Below are positions 5,698 through 18,091 of a DNA stretch of 38,699 nucleotides, one piece after another; within the stretch, counting starts at the first letter, position 1; the number at the start of each line of letters is the position of its first letter. The notes under the pieces were generated by a model. The model had not been told where the DNA came from, did not search any database, and saw only the letters and a list, made by a program, of their open reading frames with translations. A program made the position numbers and the translations under genes. This DNA comes from a virus. The stretch is taken from the IMG/VR virus record IMGVR_UViG_3300042562_000544, positions 1-38,699 of that record; one strand, 5' to 3'.

Positions 5698-5763
5698 TTA
5701 GCATGGTTGTTGTGTCACAACAGTACCGTTACTGGTGCTGTTGTGGCATGTCAGCCATGCTAA
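5698..5763. terminator. Nested hairpin between convergent operons
   Basis: The outer stem TTAGCATGG (5698-5706) pairs with CCATGCTAA (5755-5763). The inner 12-bp stem CACAACAGTACC (5716-5727) pairs with 5734-5745 around loop GTTACT. The structure sits exactly where the rightward early operon and the leftward replication operon meet, and its last bases contain the stop codon of the gene at 5760. There is no strong T-run on either side, so it may stop transcription poorly by itself or act with antisense collision. Confidence 0.6.
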
Positions 5764-6380
5764 TCATGCCAAGCCCAAGGTGGCTCACCACCAAGACGTT
5801 CCACCAGCTTATCCATGATCCGTTCATCACGCCTACGCACTGTACGGTCAGAACAATCCAACCATGCAGCCATTTCCTGTAAAGTAAGACCACCGTTACG
5901 GTAATGATTCTCCAGAAACACACGATCCTTCTCGGGTAGTGAATAGAATGCTGAACGAACATCAGCAATCATGGCTAACCGATTGTTTCCTTCATTAGGT
6001 CGGCTAGATCCACGAACTTCACCACCATACACAGTCTCGCCACTAGTCCAGTCTTCCACATCAAAAATGTTTGGAATAATTTCCCGAATCATTTGTTGAG
6101 TGTAATAAAACACATCATTCCTATCGAAACCTGCACGTTTTTGACGTTCAACACGGATAATAGTTAAACAACGTTGTCGTGCAGCATTACGCAGCTTATT
6201 TTCCCCATGTTTACCTTCATCCCGCCACTCCATAATCTTGTGGGGATGTTCCAACATCCATAGGCAAGCATCACTAAACAAGTCATCGGATTCAATCATG
6301 TTTCTACCCGATTTCCATGCAGACATGGAACCTTGTCGTGCTAGTTTAATTTCTTTATCAGTCAACTCTATGGTTACCAC
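5760..6380 (-). CDS. Sigma-factor-like helix-turn-helix protein
   Basis: 206 residues. Residues about 145-195 (LPEKDRVFLENHY... LTLQEMAAWLDCSDRTVRRRDERIMDKL) match sigma70 region 4, with a helix-turn-helix. The segment near residues 30-45 (ESDDLFSDACLWML) resembles the D-L-x-Q-E-x start of region 2. It is probably a divergent sigma factor or sigma-like activator that redirects RNA polymerase, perhaps to late promoters. It is the last gene of its operon and overlaps the phosphoesterase gene by 7 bases. No promoter consensus can be derived by eye. Confidence 0.7.
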   Translation of the reverse strand: MVTIELTDKEIKLARQGSMSAWKSGRNMIESDDLFSDACLWMLEHPHKIMEWRDEGKHGENKLRNAARQRCLTIIRVERQKRAGFDRNDVFYYTQQMIREIIPNIFDVEDWTSGETVYGGEVRGSSRPNEGNNRLAMIADVRSAFYSLPEKDRVFLENHYRNGGLTLQEMAAWLDCSDRTVRRRDERIMDKLVERLGGEPPWAWHD

Positions 6381-9973: not shown

Positions 9974-10197
9974 TACTTGTTACCTTTCTTTTTCGTTTTA
10001 ACGTTTGCTTTCAAATATTCTAGATCCATTTCGTGTGCTTCCGCAGTAATATCCAGGAACGCTACACGGTTATGTAGTTTATTGCTTTGCGATTCCATGA
10101 GATCCATAACTTGATTGAGTCTGTCCAGCTCGAACTCTAGAGTGTACAGCCAAGATTCAAGATTGCTTTGTCTTTCCTTCAATCTTTTATTAAACAT
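9973..10197 (-). CDS. Small coiled-coil protein
   Basis: 74 residues, charged and heptad-like throughout (LESWLYTLEFELDRLNQVM), ending in a lysine-rich tail (KTKKKGNK). Probably an oligomerising helix. It overlaps the nuclease gene by 8 bases and abuts the next gene, so it belongs to the same translation unit. Function unknown. Confidence 0.6.
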   Translation of the reverse strand: MFNKRLKERQSNLESWLYTLEFELDRLNQVMDLMESQSNKLHNRVAFLDITAEAHEMDLEYLKANVKTKKKGNK

Positions 10198-10867
10198 TAA
10201 CCACCCCTAAATCAGACCTGAAATCAGGTGCGTATTTTGTGTTACCTGAATAAGCATAGCATGATTCTTTCACGCCACAAGTATTACACATCATAGTCAT
10301 GTTGGGTACAAACAGTTCCTGATCAATACTTTTCTTAACATCCCGCATCCAACGGGCAACCATGTCTTCACCATAAAACGTAAGGTCATACACGGTGTCG
10401 AGAGTGCCACCACGAGACATCCAGTAGGCACCAAAATTCGGTGCGATACCGAACTGTTCCTGTAAAGCTAACCGATACACAGCCAACTGTAACCCCGACT
10501 TGGGTGGTTGACCTGTCTTCAAATCAACAATAATGGTTTCACCTGTCTGCACATCAACCATGATCCGGTCAATGTAGGCTTTCAGAATCACACCACCAGG
10601 TAACGGAACGTTGATACCAAGTTCGACTGCTGGGTTACCTTCAGGGGTAGTCCAAATGTCTAACTGTGGATTAGTCATACGCCAGTTGTACCAGTTGTGC
10701 ACCATGGTGGGTCCTTCACTCAACCACCAAGACTTGTCTTCCTTGTTAGGATATTTCTTTGATACCCTGCCACCTACACGCCAAGGCTTGTCACCTAGTT
10801 CGGTTTCTTTCTGGGCAACATAATCGTGGAATGCTGCAAGACCAGCATCGTATGCTATGCCGCTCAT
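10190..10867 (-). CDS. Cas4/RecB-like nuclease, catalytic and C-terminal part
   Basis: 225 residues. D100 (A-Y-I-D), D115-L-K117 and Q127-x3-Y131 form the PD-(D/E)XK motifs II, III and the QxxxY motif of RecB-family nucleases. C194-x2-C197-x5-C203 supplies three of the four cysteines that bind the [4Fe-4S] cluster in Cas4 and AddB. The fourth cysteine and the motif I histidine are in the upstream protein (10864-11091). Starts in an ATGA overlap with that gene. Expected role: 5'-3' processing of DNA ends during replication or recombination. Confidence 0.8.
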   Translation of the reverse strand: MSGIAYDAGLAAFHDYVAQKETELGDKPWRVGGRVSKKYPNKEDKSWWLSEGPTMVHNWYNWRMTNPQLDIWTTPEGNPAVELGINVPLPGGVILKAYIDRIMVDVQTGETIIVDLKTGQPPKSGLQLAVYRLALQEQFGIAPNFGAYWMSRGGTLDTVYDLTFYGEDMVARWMRDVKKSIDQELFVPNMTMMCNTCGVKESCYAYSGNTKYAPDFRSDLGVVNV

Positions 10868-11091
10868 GCCCGACCTGCCTCTGCCAATAGTTGAAGGTCG
10901 ATAGCATCTGCTGCAGCATGCACTGCACTACCACCGACAAGGTACCATGCTGGGTCTTCATCAAGTTTCAGGACACGTGTGAGCCTGTACTTTTCTCCAC
11001 AACTCAAGAAGGTTGTGAACTGGGAGTAGCTTAAATATTCTGGTTTCTGTTGTTCATTCATGTATTGACTGTGACAGAAATATTTGGGCAT
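10864..11091 (-). CDS. Cas4/RecB-like nuclease, N-terminal part
   Basis: Up to 75 residues. Y-L-S-Y-S-Q-F... S-C31-G-E-K-Y and G-G-S-A-V-H58 are the N-terminal motif, first cluster cysteine and motif I histidine of the PDDEXK_1/Cas4 family, which normally precede the catalytic core in one chain of about 250-300 residues. Here the chain stops at the ATGA overlap with the core gene. The start is uncertain: ATG at 11091 or at 11061, neither with a good ribosome-binding site, so a leaderless mRNA is possible. TTGACA lies on the minus strand at 11096-11091 without a clear -10 element. Confidence 0.7.
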   Translation of the reverse strand: MPKYFCHSQYMNEQQKPEYLSYSQFTTFLSCGEKYRLTRVLKLDEDPAWYLVGGSAVHAAADAIDLQLLAEAGRA

Positions 11092-11100
11092 GTCAAGGGG

Positions 11101-11354
11101 GACACGCTGGCGTGTCGTGGTTTGTGCTGTCAGTGGATTGTGGTAGGTTTATCGGGCGCGAAAGCGTGGGGCGGAAACTCCATTGACGGGCGAAGGCACA
11201 TGTCTGAGAGTTTCCCTATCCTACTACGAGTTTAAAATCGTGGGGGGTAGGGGGGCGTTTCTCTTTTCAGGGTTCAGGCAGGGAGCGAGGCTTAACCGAG
11301 CGACCTGTATAGATACTACTTATAGTTAGGGTTTATAAACTGTTTATGTGTAGT
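11101..11354 (+). ncRNA. Candidate structured RNA between the replication and lysis operons
   Basis: There is no protein gene in 11092-11508. The plus strand shows a series of helices: GACACG/CGTGTC (11101-11116, loop CTGG); GCGC-GAAA-GCGT (11156-11167), a GNRA tetraloop; GGAAACTC (11173-11180) with GAGTTTCC (11208-11215); CCTAC/GTAGG enclosing ACGA/TCGT (11220-11251). The last is 11279-11307, in which CAGG/CCTG and GG/CC flank two identical GAGCGA segments that would form tandem sheared G-A pairs around G-C pairs. The GNRA loop and tandem GA pairs exist only in the plus-strand RNA. A plus-strand terminator follows (11355-11380). A weak promoter (TTGTGC at 11122, TAGGTT at 11144) is possible. 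No known RNA family is recognised. Confidence 0.5.
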
Positions 11355-11380
11355 GATACGGTAAACCGTATCTTTATTTT
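11355..11380 (+). terminator. Plus-strand intrinsic terminator of the candidate RNA
   Basis: GATACGG (11355-11361), loop TAAA, CCGTATC (11366-11372), directly followed by TTTATTTT on the plus strand. The minus strand has no T-run here. There is no plus-strand protein gene to its left until 5677, behind another terminator, so it implies a separate plus-strand transcript in this gap. Confidence 0.6.
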
Positions 11381-11386
11381 AGACAC

Positions 11387-11430
11387 AAAAAAGCCCCCCT
11401 ACACCGGATGATACCAGCATAGGGGGGTTA
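11387..11430 (-). terminator. Intrinsic terminator of the late operon
   Basis: Minus strand: stem of 8 G-C-rich pairs (CCCCCCTA with TAGGGGGG, plus-strand 11394-11401 and 11420-11427), then six T residues (plus-strand A-run 11387-11392). It lies about 80 bases beyond the endolysin stop and ends the roughly 27-kb late transcript. Confidence 0.8.
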
Positions 11431-11508
11431 ACGTCTGTATTGTGCCTTAAAAGCCTGTCTATAGGGCTTCCTGTGGCATGCTTTACAAGGGTTTAAGGCG
11501 GTTGTAAC

Positions 11509-12009
11509 CTACTTCTTTCTAATATTACCTGAAGCAGTGATACCGAGGCGTAGCATTTCCCGCTTCACAGCATTCACATCAGGCTTCACAATCACCAGGT
11601 GCATGGGGTCATAGAAGTTTTTCCAATCACCACCCCATTCAAGCAACTTATATTTCTTCAACAGTTTCCGCATAGCGAGAGCCTTCACAGGATGCTTCAC
11701 CCACCACACGTTCGACTTCGACTGACTGCCTTCTTTCGTAGCATTCAAATCGATAGCAACACCACCACAATGGTCACTGATCTTCGAGCTGGCATTACCT
11801 TTACGAGGCTCAGTCCAAGCCCAATCATCAAACGTACCCACATCGATAGGCGCAATCAACTTGTGATATTCACTAGCGAAAGCAATCAGGTACGGTCCAA
11901 CATCTTTCCGTAACCGCATCTTCCGTTTCGTGCCAGGGACAGTAAACAATTTTAGTCGCTCATCCGACATGTTAGGTATAACATCCCAACCGTTAATTGT
12001 TTTAGCCAT
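11509..12009 (-). CDS. Endolysin, M15 (VanY/D-Ala-D-Ala carboxypeptidase-like) peptidase
   Basis: 166 residues. S78-D-H80-C-G-G-x-A-x-D87 is the M15 motif SxHxxGxAxD; E124-W-G-G-D128 and H137 (P-M-H-L) complete the zinc site and catalytic acid. M15 endolysins cut the peptide part of peptidoglycan. No signal peptide and no wall-binding domain, so release depends on the membrane proteins encoded just upstream (overlapping by one base). Last gene of the late operon. Confidence 0.88.
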   Translation of the reverse strand: MAKTINGWDVIPNMSDERLKLFTVPGTKRKMRLRKDVGPYLIAFASEYHKLIAPIDVGTFDDWAWTEPRKGNASSKISDHCGGVAIDLNATKEGSQSKSNVWWVKHPVKALAMRKLLKKYKLLEWGGDWKNFYDPMHLVIVKPDVNAVKREMLRLGITASGNIRKK

Positions 12010-14747: not shown

Positions 14748-16451
14748 TCAAATCATGTAGCGAATTATGACTACACCGGAACCACCAGCGCCGCCGTTGC
14801 CATTATTGTTACCACCACCGCCACCACCGCCACCTGTGTTAGCAGTACCTGCTGATCCGTTAGCGTCTGCAATACCACCTGCACCGCCGCCGCCTGAACC
14901 TGCTGCACCGCCAGTAGTTTGTCCTTCACCACCGCCGCCACCCGCACGGGTCACACTTGTGCCTGTAATTGAGTTGGCGGTTCCTGCGCCACCAGCACCG
15001 CCGTCATTCCCCGAACTAGCGGCACCTACCGCGCTTGAACCACCACCGCCAGCGCCAGCAAAAGTACCAACAGCAGTTCCGCCTGCGCTACCTAGACCGG
15101 AAACACCAGAGCCGCCAGCACCAGCCGAACCAGTCCCAAAACCACCACCGCCACCGCCAGAGCCACCGTTTAGTCCGGGAAGCGATCTGGCCGCATTAGT
15201 CCTATCTCTTGTGGCGCAGCCCCCACCGCCACCACCCGGAGAGTAAATAAAATTTGACAAACTTGAAGTAATACCGTTATTACCGGGTTGTCCTTCATCT
15301 GAGGCATTAGTTCCACCAGCACCGCCAGCACCAACAGTTACAGTTGCCGTCCCGCTTGGCAAATACACACCTGTTGCATAAAGATGACCACCAGCACCGC
15401 CACCGCCACCGCGTAAAGACCCACCGCCTCCACCGCCACCGACAACGAGGCAATCAACAAAACCGGGAGCATTAACCGACAGCGAACCAGACGAAGTAAA
15501 CGAATGAACCTTATACGTCTTACCATTAACACCATTACTACCATCAGCGACATAAGTAGTTTCAGTTCCACCACTCGCTGCTACACCTGCTGCTGATCCA
15601 CCAATAATGGTACGGACAATAACGATACCGCTACCGCCTGCTGCGCCAACAAGATTATCGCTACCGCCTCCACCACCACCAGTATTAGCAGTACCAGCAG
15701 TTGCAGTATTTAAGGCACCGGCTCCGCCACCACCTGAACCCCCTGAACCAGAAGTTCCAGAGCGAGATGCAGCGCCACCTCCGCCAGCGTAAGTAACAGA
15801 TGTACCAGTAATAGAATTGGCTAAACCAGCACCACCATTACCGGCAGTAGTTGATACTGCTGTGCCCCCTACTGCACCAGCGCCCCCACCGCCACCACTA
15901 GCAATTGCTGATGATGATGATGTGCCTCCAGCATTACCTTGACCACTGAACCCCGATCCTCCGGGACCACTAGCGCTGTTACCACAACCACCTCCACCTG
16001 ATCCACCATTTTGACCAAGTTTGTTGCTATTACCGAAACCCCCACCACCACCGCCGCCAATACCTATTGCAATGTTGCCGATACCGGTCGAATTACCATT
16101 ACGGCCATCTCCGTAGGTTGCAGCAACACCACCAGCACCACCGGCTCCAACTGTAACCGTGTGAGTACCGTTTAATAAAAAACAAGATTGAGTAAAATTC
16201 AAGCCACCGGCTCCGCCGCCTCCTCCCATTGTACTTCCACCACCAGCGCCGCCACCGATAACGAGAACATCAACCACACCACTAGAAGAAACCACCAGCG
16301 AACCAGAAGAAGTAAACGACCTCACCTCATACTCAATACCACCATCAGTATAAGTAGTACGAGTACCACCAGAAGAAATCTGTGCGAACCTACCCGCTGT
16401 AGGTATCGCTGAACCTGCACCTAGAGCGGTAGATAGTTTAGATATAGTCAT
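14748..16451 (-). CDS. Glycine-rich tail fibre-like protein 1 (two repeats)
   Basis: 567 residues. Two copies of a unit of about 260 residues: each begins with a short strand segment ending F-T-S-S-G-S-L, then D-x-L-V-[IV]-G-G-G followed by a long glycine-rich region with H/Y-x-x-T-G/S-x-Y-L-x-x-G and T-V-T-V-G-A-G-G-A-G-G motifs. This is the glycine-rich domain (Gly_rich_2 type) found in phage fibres and adhesins. Probably binds the cell surface. The composition gives a strongly biased CCACCGCCACC base pattern on the plus strand. Paralogue of the next gene. Confidence 0.75.
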   Translation of the reverse strand: MTISKLSTALGAGSAIPTAGRFAQISSGGTRTTYTDGGIEYEVRSFTSSGSLVVSSSGVVDVLVIGGGAGGGSTMGGGGGAGGLNFTQSCFLLNGTHTVTVGAGGAGGVAATYGDGRNGNSTGIGNIAIGIGGGGGGGFGNSNKLGQNGGSGGGGCGNSASGPGGSGFSGQGNAGGTSSSSAIASGGGGGAGAVGGTAVSTTAGNGGAGLANSITGTSVTYAGGGGAASRSGTSGSGGSGGGGAGALNTATAGTANTGGGGGGSDNLVGAAGGSGIVIVRTIIGGSAAGVAASGGTETTYVADGSNGVNGKTYKVHSFTSSGSLSVNAPGFVDCLVVGGGGGGGSLRGGGGGAGGHLYATGVYLPSGTATVTVGAGGAGGTNASDEGQPGNNGITSSLSNFIYSPGGGGGGCATRDRTNAARSLPGLNGGSGGGGGGFGTGSAGAGGSGVSGLGSAGGTAVGTFAGAGGGGSSAVGAASSGNDGGAGGAGTANSITGTSVTRAGGGGGEGQTTGGAAGSGGGGAGGIADANGSAGTANTGGGGGGGGNNNGNGGAGGSGVVIIRYMI

Positions 16452-18091
16452 TATGCTGTCCTTACTCTCACGATTACAACACCGGAACCACCAGAACCGG
16501 GTGTGTTTGCAGTGTTAGTTCCTCCACCTCCACCACCGGTATTCGCAGTACCAGATGTGTTAAAAGCACCACCCCCACCACTTCCGCCAGCACCGTCACT
16601 ACCTGTTGCACCTCCGCCACCGCCACCTGCACGGGTAACTGATGAACCTGTAATGCTTGAGGCTAAACCAGCGCCACCGTTAGCAGTGCCCGTTCCGGCT
16701 ACTCCAGCAGCACCAGCACCACCGCCACCGCCGCCAAAACCCCCACCACCAGTACCACCGTTATTACCTTGCGAACTGACACCACTGCCAGCAACAGCAG
16801 AATTACCACCCCCACCGCCAGCCGATCCACCACCACCAGCGGGAGCACTATTCCCCCGCCCCCCGGCACCACCACCGATTCCGTAATAAACATCTAAACG
16901 TGAAGTGCTACCTGTTGTTTCTATTCCCCCGCCTGCACCAACAGTTACAGTTAGTGAGCCTGCTAGAAGATATGCACTTGTTATAGAAAGGTGTCCACCT
17001 GCTCCGCCACCGCCGCCAAAATAACTAGCAGTATTGTTCCTACCTCCGCCACCGCCGCCACCGACAACGAGGACGTCAGCGAAACCGGCAACGTTCACCG
17101 TTAGCGTTGATGACGAATTGAAAGTGTAGTAAGCGTATGTGGCACCACCAGAACTGTAAGTGCCAGTCGCTGTGCCACCAAGTGAAGCCGCACCAGCAAC
17201 AGGTGTGTAAGGTCGTGCAACCCGGAGGATGACTACGCCGGAACCGCCGTTGCCGCCGGAACCACCATTTCCAGAGGCGTATCCACCACCACCTCCGCCT
17301 CCACCAGTATTAGCCGTGCCTGCTGTGGCTGTGGTGTTGTTGTTCGTACCACCACCGCCACCGCCAGTGCCACCAGAACCAGCAGTGTTTCCTCTTGAAC
17401 CGCCACCACCACCGCCACCGCGAGTAACACTTGTTCCTGTGATAGATGATGCTAAACCAGCGCCACCATTACCAGCGTTTACTAAGTTAACACCGGAGTT
17501 ATCACCCCCGACAGCGCCAGCACCACCACCACCCGAACCTGCCGAACTACTGCCAGTTGTTGCCACACCTCCTGAATTACCTTGACCGGAAACACCTGTG
17601 GAGACAGTCTTAGTGACATCTCTTGAACCGCCACCGCCACCCGAGCCGCCACTAAATCCGTTTGATTCCGCCCCAGACCCAGCGAATATTGAACCGCCAC
17701 CGCCGCCGCCAACGCCGTAATATGTACCAAGTCTTGAAGCAACACCGTTACTTCCTGCCGCATATCCCAAAGTTGTATTGTTCGCACCCGATCCACCAGC
17801 GCCAACAACTACTGTTTGCGTGCCTGCACTTAAATACACACCAGTTGATTCAAGGTATCCGCCAGCACCGCCACCGCCACCTGTATTGCCACCGCCGCCC
17901 CCACCACCGATAACGAGAACGTCAGCCAGTCCCGCCGTTGACACAGTGATTGATGAACTTGAATTGAAAGTCCAATAATCGTAGGTCACTCCACCGGAAC
18001 TGTAATTCCCTGTCGGAGTATCAGTAATCGCTGCATTATTTGTAATACCCAAACGCAACAAACCGCTACCACTAAAAGTTGAAAGAGCCAT
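16451..18091 (-). CDS. Glycine-rich tail fibre-like protein 2 (two repeats)
   Basis: 546 residues with the same duplicated architecture as its neighbour: Y-x-Y-W/Y-T-F-N-S-S-S, A-D-V-L-V-[IV]-G-G-G-G-G-G-G, then glycine-rich tracts ending S-G-V-V-I-[LV]-R-V. The two genes share one base, and the four units probably arose by tandem duplication. Variation is mostly in the glycine-rich loops, as expected for surface-binding regions. Confidence 0.75.
   Translation of the reverse strand: MALSTFSGSGLLRLGITNNAAITDTPTGNYSSGGVTYDYWTFNSSSSITVSTAGLADVLVIGGGGGGGNTGGGGGAGGYLESTGVYLSAGTQTVVVGAGGSGANNTTLGYAAGSNGVASRLGTYYGVGGGGGGSIFAGSGAESNGFSGGSGGGGGSRDVTKTVSTGVSGQGNSGGVATTGSSSAGSGGGGAGAVGGDNSGVNLVNAGNGGAGLASSITGTSVTRGGGGGGGSRGNTAGSGGTGGGGGGTNNNTTATAGTANTGGGGGGGGYASGNGGSGGNGGSGVVILRVARPYTPVAGAASLGGTATGTYSSGGATYAYYTFNSSSTLTVNVAGFADVLVVGGGGGGGRNNTASYFGGGGGAGGHLSITSAYLLAGSLTVTVGAGGGIETTGSTSRLDVYYGIGGGAGGRGNSAPAGGGGSAGGGGGNSAVAGSGVSSQGNNGGTGGGGFGGGGGGAGAAGVAGTGTANGGAGLASSITGSSVTRAGGGGGGATGSDGAGGSGGGGAFNTSGTANTGGGGGGTNTANTPGSGGSGVVIVRVRTA

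Follow-up and report, generated by a model that had tools for sequence, protein, structure and literature searches.

A conserved structured RNA beside the replication genes of uncultured aquatic phages, possibly an RNA-based replication origin

At the junction between the replication and lysis genes of a tailed phage lies a conserved structured RNA, encoded on the plus strand, the core of which occupies positions 11,156 to 11,305 of the window (i.e., the whole stretch of 38,699 nucleotides under analysis) and recurs in at least 120 IMG/VR contigs. On comparative grounds, the element is a free-standing non-coding RNA of the phage, predicted to be transcribed independently in vivo, for which a promoter of its own, conserved pairing, a switch architecture and a single copy per genome at a fixed junction are indicated. 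Regarding its function, an RNA-based origin of phage replication bordering the replication module, with putative R-loop formation and priming, is tentatively favoured over a trans-acting small RNA, which is nearly as likely and which most of the same facts would fit. The element adds a widespread structured RNA family from uncultured aquatic phages, unmatched in Rfam and in our searches of named phages, plasmids and cellular genomes.

Genomic setting, extent and distribution

The window, a contig of 38.7 kb, carries the terminase, portal and capsid genes of a tailed phage; this phage and its relatives probably infect Actinobacteria, judging from the relatives of the phage helicase. The gap harbouring the RNA (11,092–11,508) is bordered on one side by the replication genes, headed on the minus strand by a Cas4-like exonuclease, the N-terminal part of which (10,864–11,091; PHROG exonuclease) is divergent from the RNA and precedes a C-terminal PD-(D/E)XK part (10,190–10,867; Pfam PDDEXK_1 and PHROG), and on the other side by an endolysin gene (11,509–12,009, minus strand; PHROG endolysin) convergent with the RNA. 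The exonuclease of the window is split over these two overlapping open reading frames (ORFs); in some relatives, including L004, L008 and L017, the halves are about 205 to about 584 nt apart, sometimes with a small ORF between them, and in the freshwater relatives the exonuclease is a single continuous gene. Elsewhere in the window, two neighbouring proteins of about 550 amino acids (14,748–16,451 and 16,451–18,091, minus strand) both fall in PHROG 2295, an apparent tandem duplication.

A stand-alone structured RNA of the plus strand, closed by its own terminator, had originally been predicted in this gap from the letters of the window, and the promoter at fixed spacing, the covariation and the lack of a conserved ORF support this view. 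The 5' boundary had been placed at 11,101, i.e., about 55 nt too far out; given the −10 hexamer TAGGTT at 11,144–11,149, the RNA would begin at about 11,156 and positions 11,101–11,155 would be upstream DNA. The expected plus-strand terminator was found as a hairpin (11,355–11,372) with a T tail; this intrinsic terminator (11,355–11,380), also present in L002 and L003, the nearest relatives, provides the predicted 3' end and is followed by the terminator of the opposing lysis operon (11,394–11,427, minus strand). The gap had also been described as devoid of a credible ORF, and indeed no reading frame is conserved across the 94 copies, each frame being stopped in 71 to 93 of them, and the lengths of the middle segment fall in all three classes modulo 3 among the copies compared. 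Relative to shuffled sequences, the plus strand of the gap folds with a z-score of −4.7 and the 150-nt core by itself with one of only −1.8, so that the weight of the evidence for a structured RNA is comparative.

Searching IMG/VR with the neighbouring proteins yielded contigs whose gap aligns with that of the window, although exonuclease identity in those contigs is 62–97%, and in these alignments the flanks are far less conserved than the core. At least 120 contigs were matched by a degenerate 26-base pattern taken from the 5' part of the element, with less than one match expected by chance according to our estimate, and those matches that extend far enough also show GGGGG(T/A/G)nGGGGGGC, a downstream motif absent from the pattern. 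Exactly one copy was present in 12 of 12 records of 37–43 kb, and no further copies of its half-copies A or A' (described below) were found elsewhere in the window. A covariance model, which includes the window sequence, matches 11,156–11,282 with 110 bits (E 1e-29). The initial impression that no known family was involved still stands, as the region had no match in Rfam 15 (riboswitches, GOLLD, ROOL, 6S and ribozymes included) up to an E-value of 10 and the window and ten relatives had none at gathering score. DNA similarity searches of named phages and plasmids with the window and freshwater variants returned nothing relevant, no homology to the RNA was seen in the genomes of D29, a C. acnes phage and ct2KA10, and a scan of about 85,000 cellular genomes with the 26-base pattern did not find the family; the lone match there, in a Prevotellaceae contig, was dismissed as a chance hit lacking the rest of the motif. 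Four close relatives (L008, L009, L010 and L012) have no RNA at the lysis-exonuclease junction in the contigs examined, where other hairpins and AT repeats occur instead. In Cutibacterium phage CAP 10-1 (L165), the replication genes (in order, exonuclease, helicase, Holliday junction resolvase, primase and sigma factor) resemble those of the window in set and order, and the RNA is absent.

Conserved pairing and two half-copies of one string

As had been suggested with the original prediction, homologous gaps were collected and the stems tested for covariation; compensatory changes were found among 44 diverse sequences, the covariation score of the fold being 0.257, compared with 0.173 (sd 0.006) for shuffled controls and no more than 0.133 with the partners slid, where copies from related contigs are non-independent observations. 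All the helices named beforehand could be located in the sequence. The 5' terminal hairpin P1 (11,156–11,167), i.e., GCGC-GAAA-GCGT with a GNRA loop, is paired in 100% of the 44 sequences with GC/CG/UA/AU exchanges, core columns 1–26, part of P1 among them, being in part dictated by the search pattern; the one pair of P1 left free is G-C, C-G or A-U, and copies retrieved with an independent 3' pattern show the stems GCCG-GUAA-CGGU, ACUC-GCAA-GAGU and ACUC-GAAA-GAGU. The proposed pairing of GGAAACTC with GAGTTTCC does form, between 11,173–11,180 and 11,208–11,215, but as an alternative early fold that is not conserved family-wide. Similarly, the ACGA/TCGT helix is present (11,226–11,229 with 11,238–11,241), where it covaries and caps a longer hairpin with GGGGGGTAGGGGGG as its 3' strand. 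In this G hairpin top (11,226–11,241, loop included), 95% of the cells are paired and all five pairs show two-sided changes, about 25 in total, next to about 18 in the long-range M:A' helix; the latter is paired in 72%, a value probably too low since M is imperfectly aligned. The 3' hairpin (about 11,281–11,305), in which facing GAGCGA segments would form tandem sheared G·A pairs, proved real and confined to copies of the window type, GAGC..GCGA occurring in 20 of 22 of these and in none of 70 freshwater-type copies.

Between P1 and the 3' hairpin, segments A and A' are two versions of one string placed on either side of a middle strand, M. Segment A (11,168–11,198), the 5' competitor strand, reads GGGGC-x-GAAAC-YY-C-y ... 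GGCA, and segment A' (11,250–11,280), the 3' competitor strand closing the long-range helix with M, reads GGGGGGC-x-TTTC-YY-y ... GGCA; M (11,201–11,229), ending in the ACGA of the G hairpin top, is complementary to parts of both, and the middle between A and A' varies from 52 to 78 nt. Position x, which is G/G, A/A or U/U in A/A', is the strongest covarying column pair in the entire alignment and changed seven times on the exonuclease tree, every time jointly in A and A'; the YY, y, GG(GU) and GGCA positions covary in a similar manner. The similarity of A to its own A' exceeded that of all 20,000 random pairings (z-score of 5.3, inflated by relatedness). The 5' part folded alone usually adopts A:M and the whole element M:A' in most copies; as for a ColE1-type switch, the middle segment in these predicted folds pairs with either the upstream or the downstream segment, exclusively, in most copies. 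Many freshwater copies carry an extra segment able to pair with A', and in the window type the predicted folds allow M to bind portions of the two loops. Competition for M, as modelled, explains only part of the matching between A and A', namely where both touch M, and leaves the freshwater x and y, for which no partner strand in cis explaining the identity covariation was found; an outside partner common to A and A', be it template DNA or a protein, is possible. Such an identity-covarying double half-copy is an unusual RNA anatomy, open to direct test under any functional reading.

The G-tract GGGGGGTAGGGGGGC (11,242–11,256), the G-runs of which read GGGGGG-UA-GGGGGG, shows a total of two parsimony steps over its 12 G columns, compared with mostly 3–15 changes per column in the C-rich partner. 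As the G columns are near-fixed while the partner drifts, and as the helix alone would tolerate G-to-A changes opposite U, the G strand is under another constraint, beyond that helix. The spacers between the two G-runs are UA, A, UG or UAA and recall mitochondrial CSBII, and in some copies the tract reads GGGGGGAGGGGGGG, which resembles the CSBII tract. That the G-run might pair with the anti-Shine-Dalgarno sequence was also weighed but not retained, as GGAGG would be the better match.

Promoter and transcriptional independence

With the upstream regions aligned on the start of P1, TANNNT was found in 92 of 93, starting nearly always at −12 and sometimes at −13 or −14; this hexamer, TAGGTT preceded by TGTGG in the window, falls outside the search pattern. 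That almost every copy places a −10 hexamer at −12 relative to the GNRA hairpin argues for a transcript starting at this 5' hairpin. In freshwater relatives, TANNNT also stands exactly at −12 of the exonuclease ATG in 68 of 69 cases, with Shine-Dalgarno sequences almost absent; judged from these exonuclease genes, leaderless initiation seems to be in use in these phages, and the shared promoter geometry would make the start of P1 (11,156 in the window) the first base of the RNA. The phage encodes a sigma-like factor (5,760–6,380, minus strand; PHROG sigma, Pfam Sigma70_r4 slightly under the cut-off), which may read promoters of the form TGnTAnnnT. Upstream of the RNA promoter sits a hairpin (11,101–11,116) formed by the palindrome GACACG/CGTGTC, and a GGCGTGTC..TTGTCA motif recurs at this side of the promoter in window-type contigs (L002–L006, L017, L112 and L161); together, palindrome and motif are possibly an operator for divergent promoters.

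Two layouts were distinguished in 92 copies, two more being left unclassified. The 70 distinct copies of the freshwater type lie on the exonuclease strand, 164–692 nt upstream of that gene, and the 22 copies of the window type, window included, are divergent from it; the genomic junction is constant and the orientation of the RNA differs. A cis-acting leader of the exonuclease operon, i.e., a riboswitch or attenuator switching between A:M and M:A', could be read from the 70 same-strand copies, from the bistable fold and from the extra A'-pairing segment of many freshwater copies. It is nonetheless improbable and was rejected, as the divergent copies and the freshwater exonuclease, leaderless and in 68 of 69 cases with a separate promoter downstream of the RNA, point instead to an independent non-coding RNA. 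In the window type, a promoter and a terminator of its own and no ORF, the marks of a stand-alone phage small RNA, are all found.

A candidate replication origin, its rivals and known systems

If the element acts as an origin, RNA polymerase would begin where the GNRA hairpin starts (11,156), from the kind of promoter shared with the leaderless exonuclease gene, and during transcription segment A would pair first with M. Upon emerging, A' would displace A from M, giving a hairpin with G6-UA-G6 followed by an AU-rich stretch. The transcript would then act at its own site, where the G-tract would keep the RNA annealed to the C-rich template strand in an R-loop, a hybrid G-quadruplex possibly being part of it, and the anchored RNA would open the duplex or prime DNA synthesis. 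The element adjoins, in either orientation, the exonuclease heading the replication genes; among the proteins scanned no initiator protein was recognised, and a helicase, a primase and a clamp-like protein are present. In three of four freshwater genomes, GC skew increases past the RNA; it shows no sign change in the window type, skew being confounded with gene modules, and composition (GC and AT skew) gives no clear origin signature. Against an origin speaks the L008 group, without the RNA at the junction in the contigs examined. With somewhat more reserve than for an origin as such, we consider a new class of RNA-primed viral origin, combining A:M to M:A' strand exchange with a CSBII-like double G-tract anchoring on the template; equally speculative is that, in such an origin, A and A' covary in identity because both must match one partner strand, possibly the DNA template. 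What is new is the RNA family; were the origin reading true, the mechanism would be a variant of RNA-primed initiation. It would suggest how phages with a helicase and a primase and without recognisable initiator begin DNA synthesis.

The main competitor is a phage small RNA acting in trans, which would be released after termination and bind a protein through the repeated loops A and A'. Its target could be the polymerase, the ribosome, a defence protein or a phage protein, in the service of host takeover or counter-defence, and we deem such a role plausible, slightly less so than an origin. The independent transcript, the terminator and the tandem-G·A 3' hairpin of the window type all suit it, the joint changes of x, YY and y would suit two sites for a single coevolving protein, and actinobacteriophages such as L5 and D29 make very abundant non-coding RNAs of unassigned function (PMC5712189), which makes it a serious rival. 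On the other hand, A and A' largely compete for M, so that two identical sites folded simultaneously are unlikely; the site beside the replication module is kept despite the flip in orientation, and in the freshwater type neither a terminator nor a clear 3' end was identified. Far less probable is a DNA-level element, such as an initiator-protein or packaging site, in which the hairpins would be incidental: A and A' do look like direct repeats and the genomic location is fixed, but GNRA loops and G·U closing pairs are confined to one strand (−56 kcal/mol for the plus vs. −33 kcal/mol for the minus strand), the changes are compensatory, the promoter stands at exact spacing, and the variable A-A' distance (52–78 nt) would disrupt protein phasing. 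Finally, the modest folding energy of the core (z-score of −1.8) might evoke a remnant of intergenic spacer or a chance fold, an idea of negligible probability that is refuted by family-wide conservation, maintained beside exonucleases of 62–97% identity, by covariation and by the single full-length match per genome.

Returning to the origin reading, the ColE1 system offers a first comparison. There, RNA II, which has an antisense counterpart in RNA I, is a structured promoter-proximal transcript whose middle segment pairs with either outer one (alpha, beta and gamma), a G-run can hold the RNA on the C-rich template, and the persistent RNA-DNA hybrid is cut by RNase H to give the primer. The present RNA shares the three-segment switch, as predicted here, and the G-run; it differs from RNA II in sequence and size, has no Rfam match, and priming is putative.

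Among phages, the abundant non-coding RNAs of mycobacteriophages L5 and D29, with one candidate in the intergenic gap between D29 genes 63 and 64 (PMC5712189), are likewise phage-encoded and non-coding with a start of their own, but model R1 of the present RNA finds no match in the D29 genome. Closer to an origin are the prophage origins that depend on a non-coding RNA in those cluster A mycobacteriophages that have parABS (RedRock, Alma and LadyBird; PMC7157519). Cluster A phages and the window phage, itself probably an actinobacteriophage, have a related DnaB-like helicase; in both, a non-coding transcript runs against its flanking genes at the border of the structural module, and no initiator gene is recognised. 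The cluster A origin differs in serving the lysogenic plasmid state, beside parABS, and in that no conserved structure of its RNA is described in the excerpts consulted (PMC7157519); a motif scan and inspection by eye of the Alma ori revealed no visible similarity, no GTGGGG and no paired G-tract. At mitochondrial CSBII, transcription stops at a G-tract and the R-loop anchored there primes replication (PMC6317783). The present element likewise has two G6-7 tracts with a spacer of one or a few bases, about 100 nt past the promoter and followed by an AU-rich stretch, and differs by its elaborate pairing, its GNRA hairpin and the use of a bacterial polymerase, quadruplex and R-loop being putative here. 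If the RNA does start replication, phage, plasmid and mitochondrial priming would become linked.
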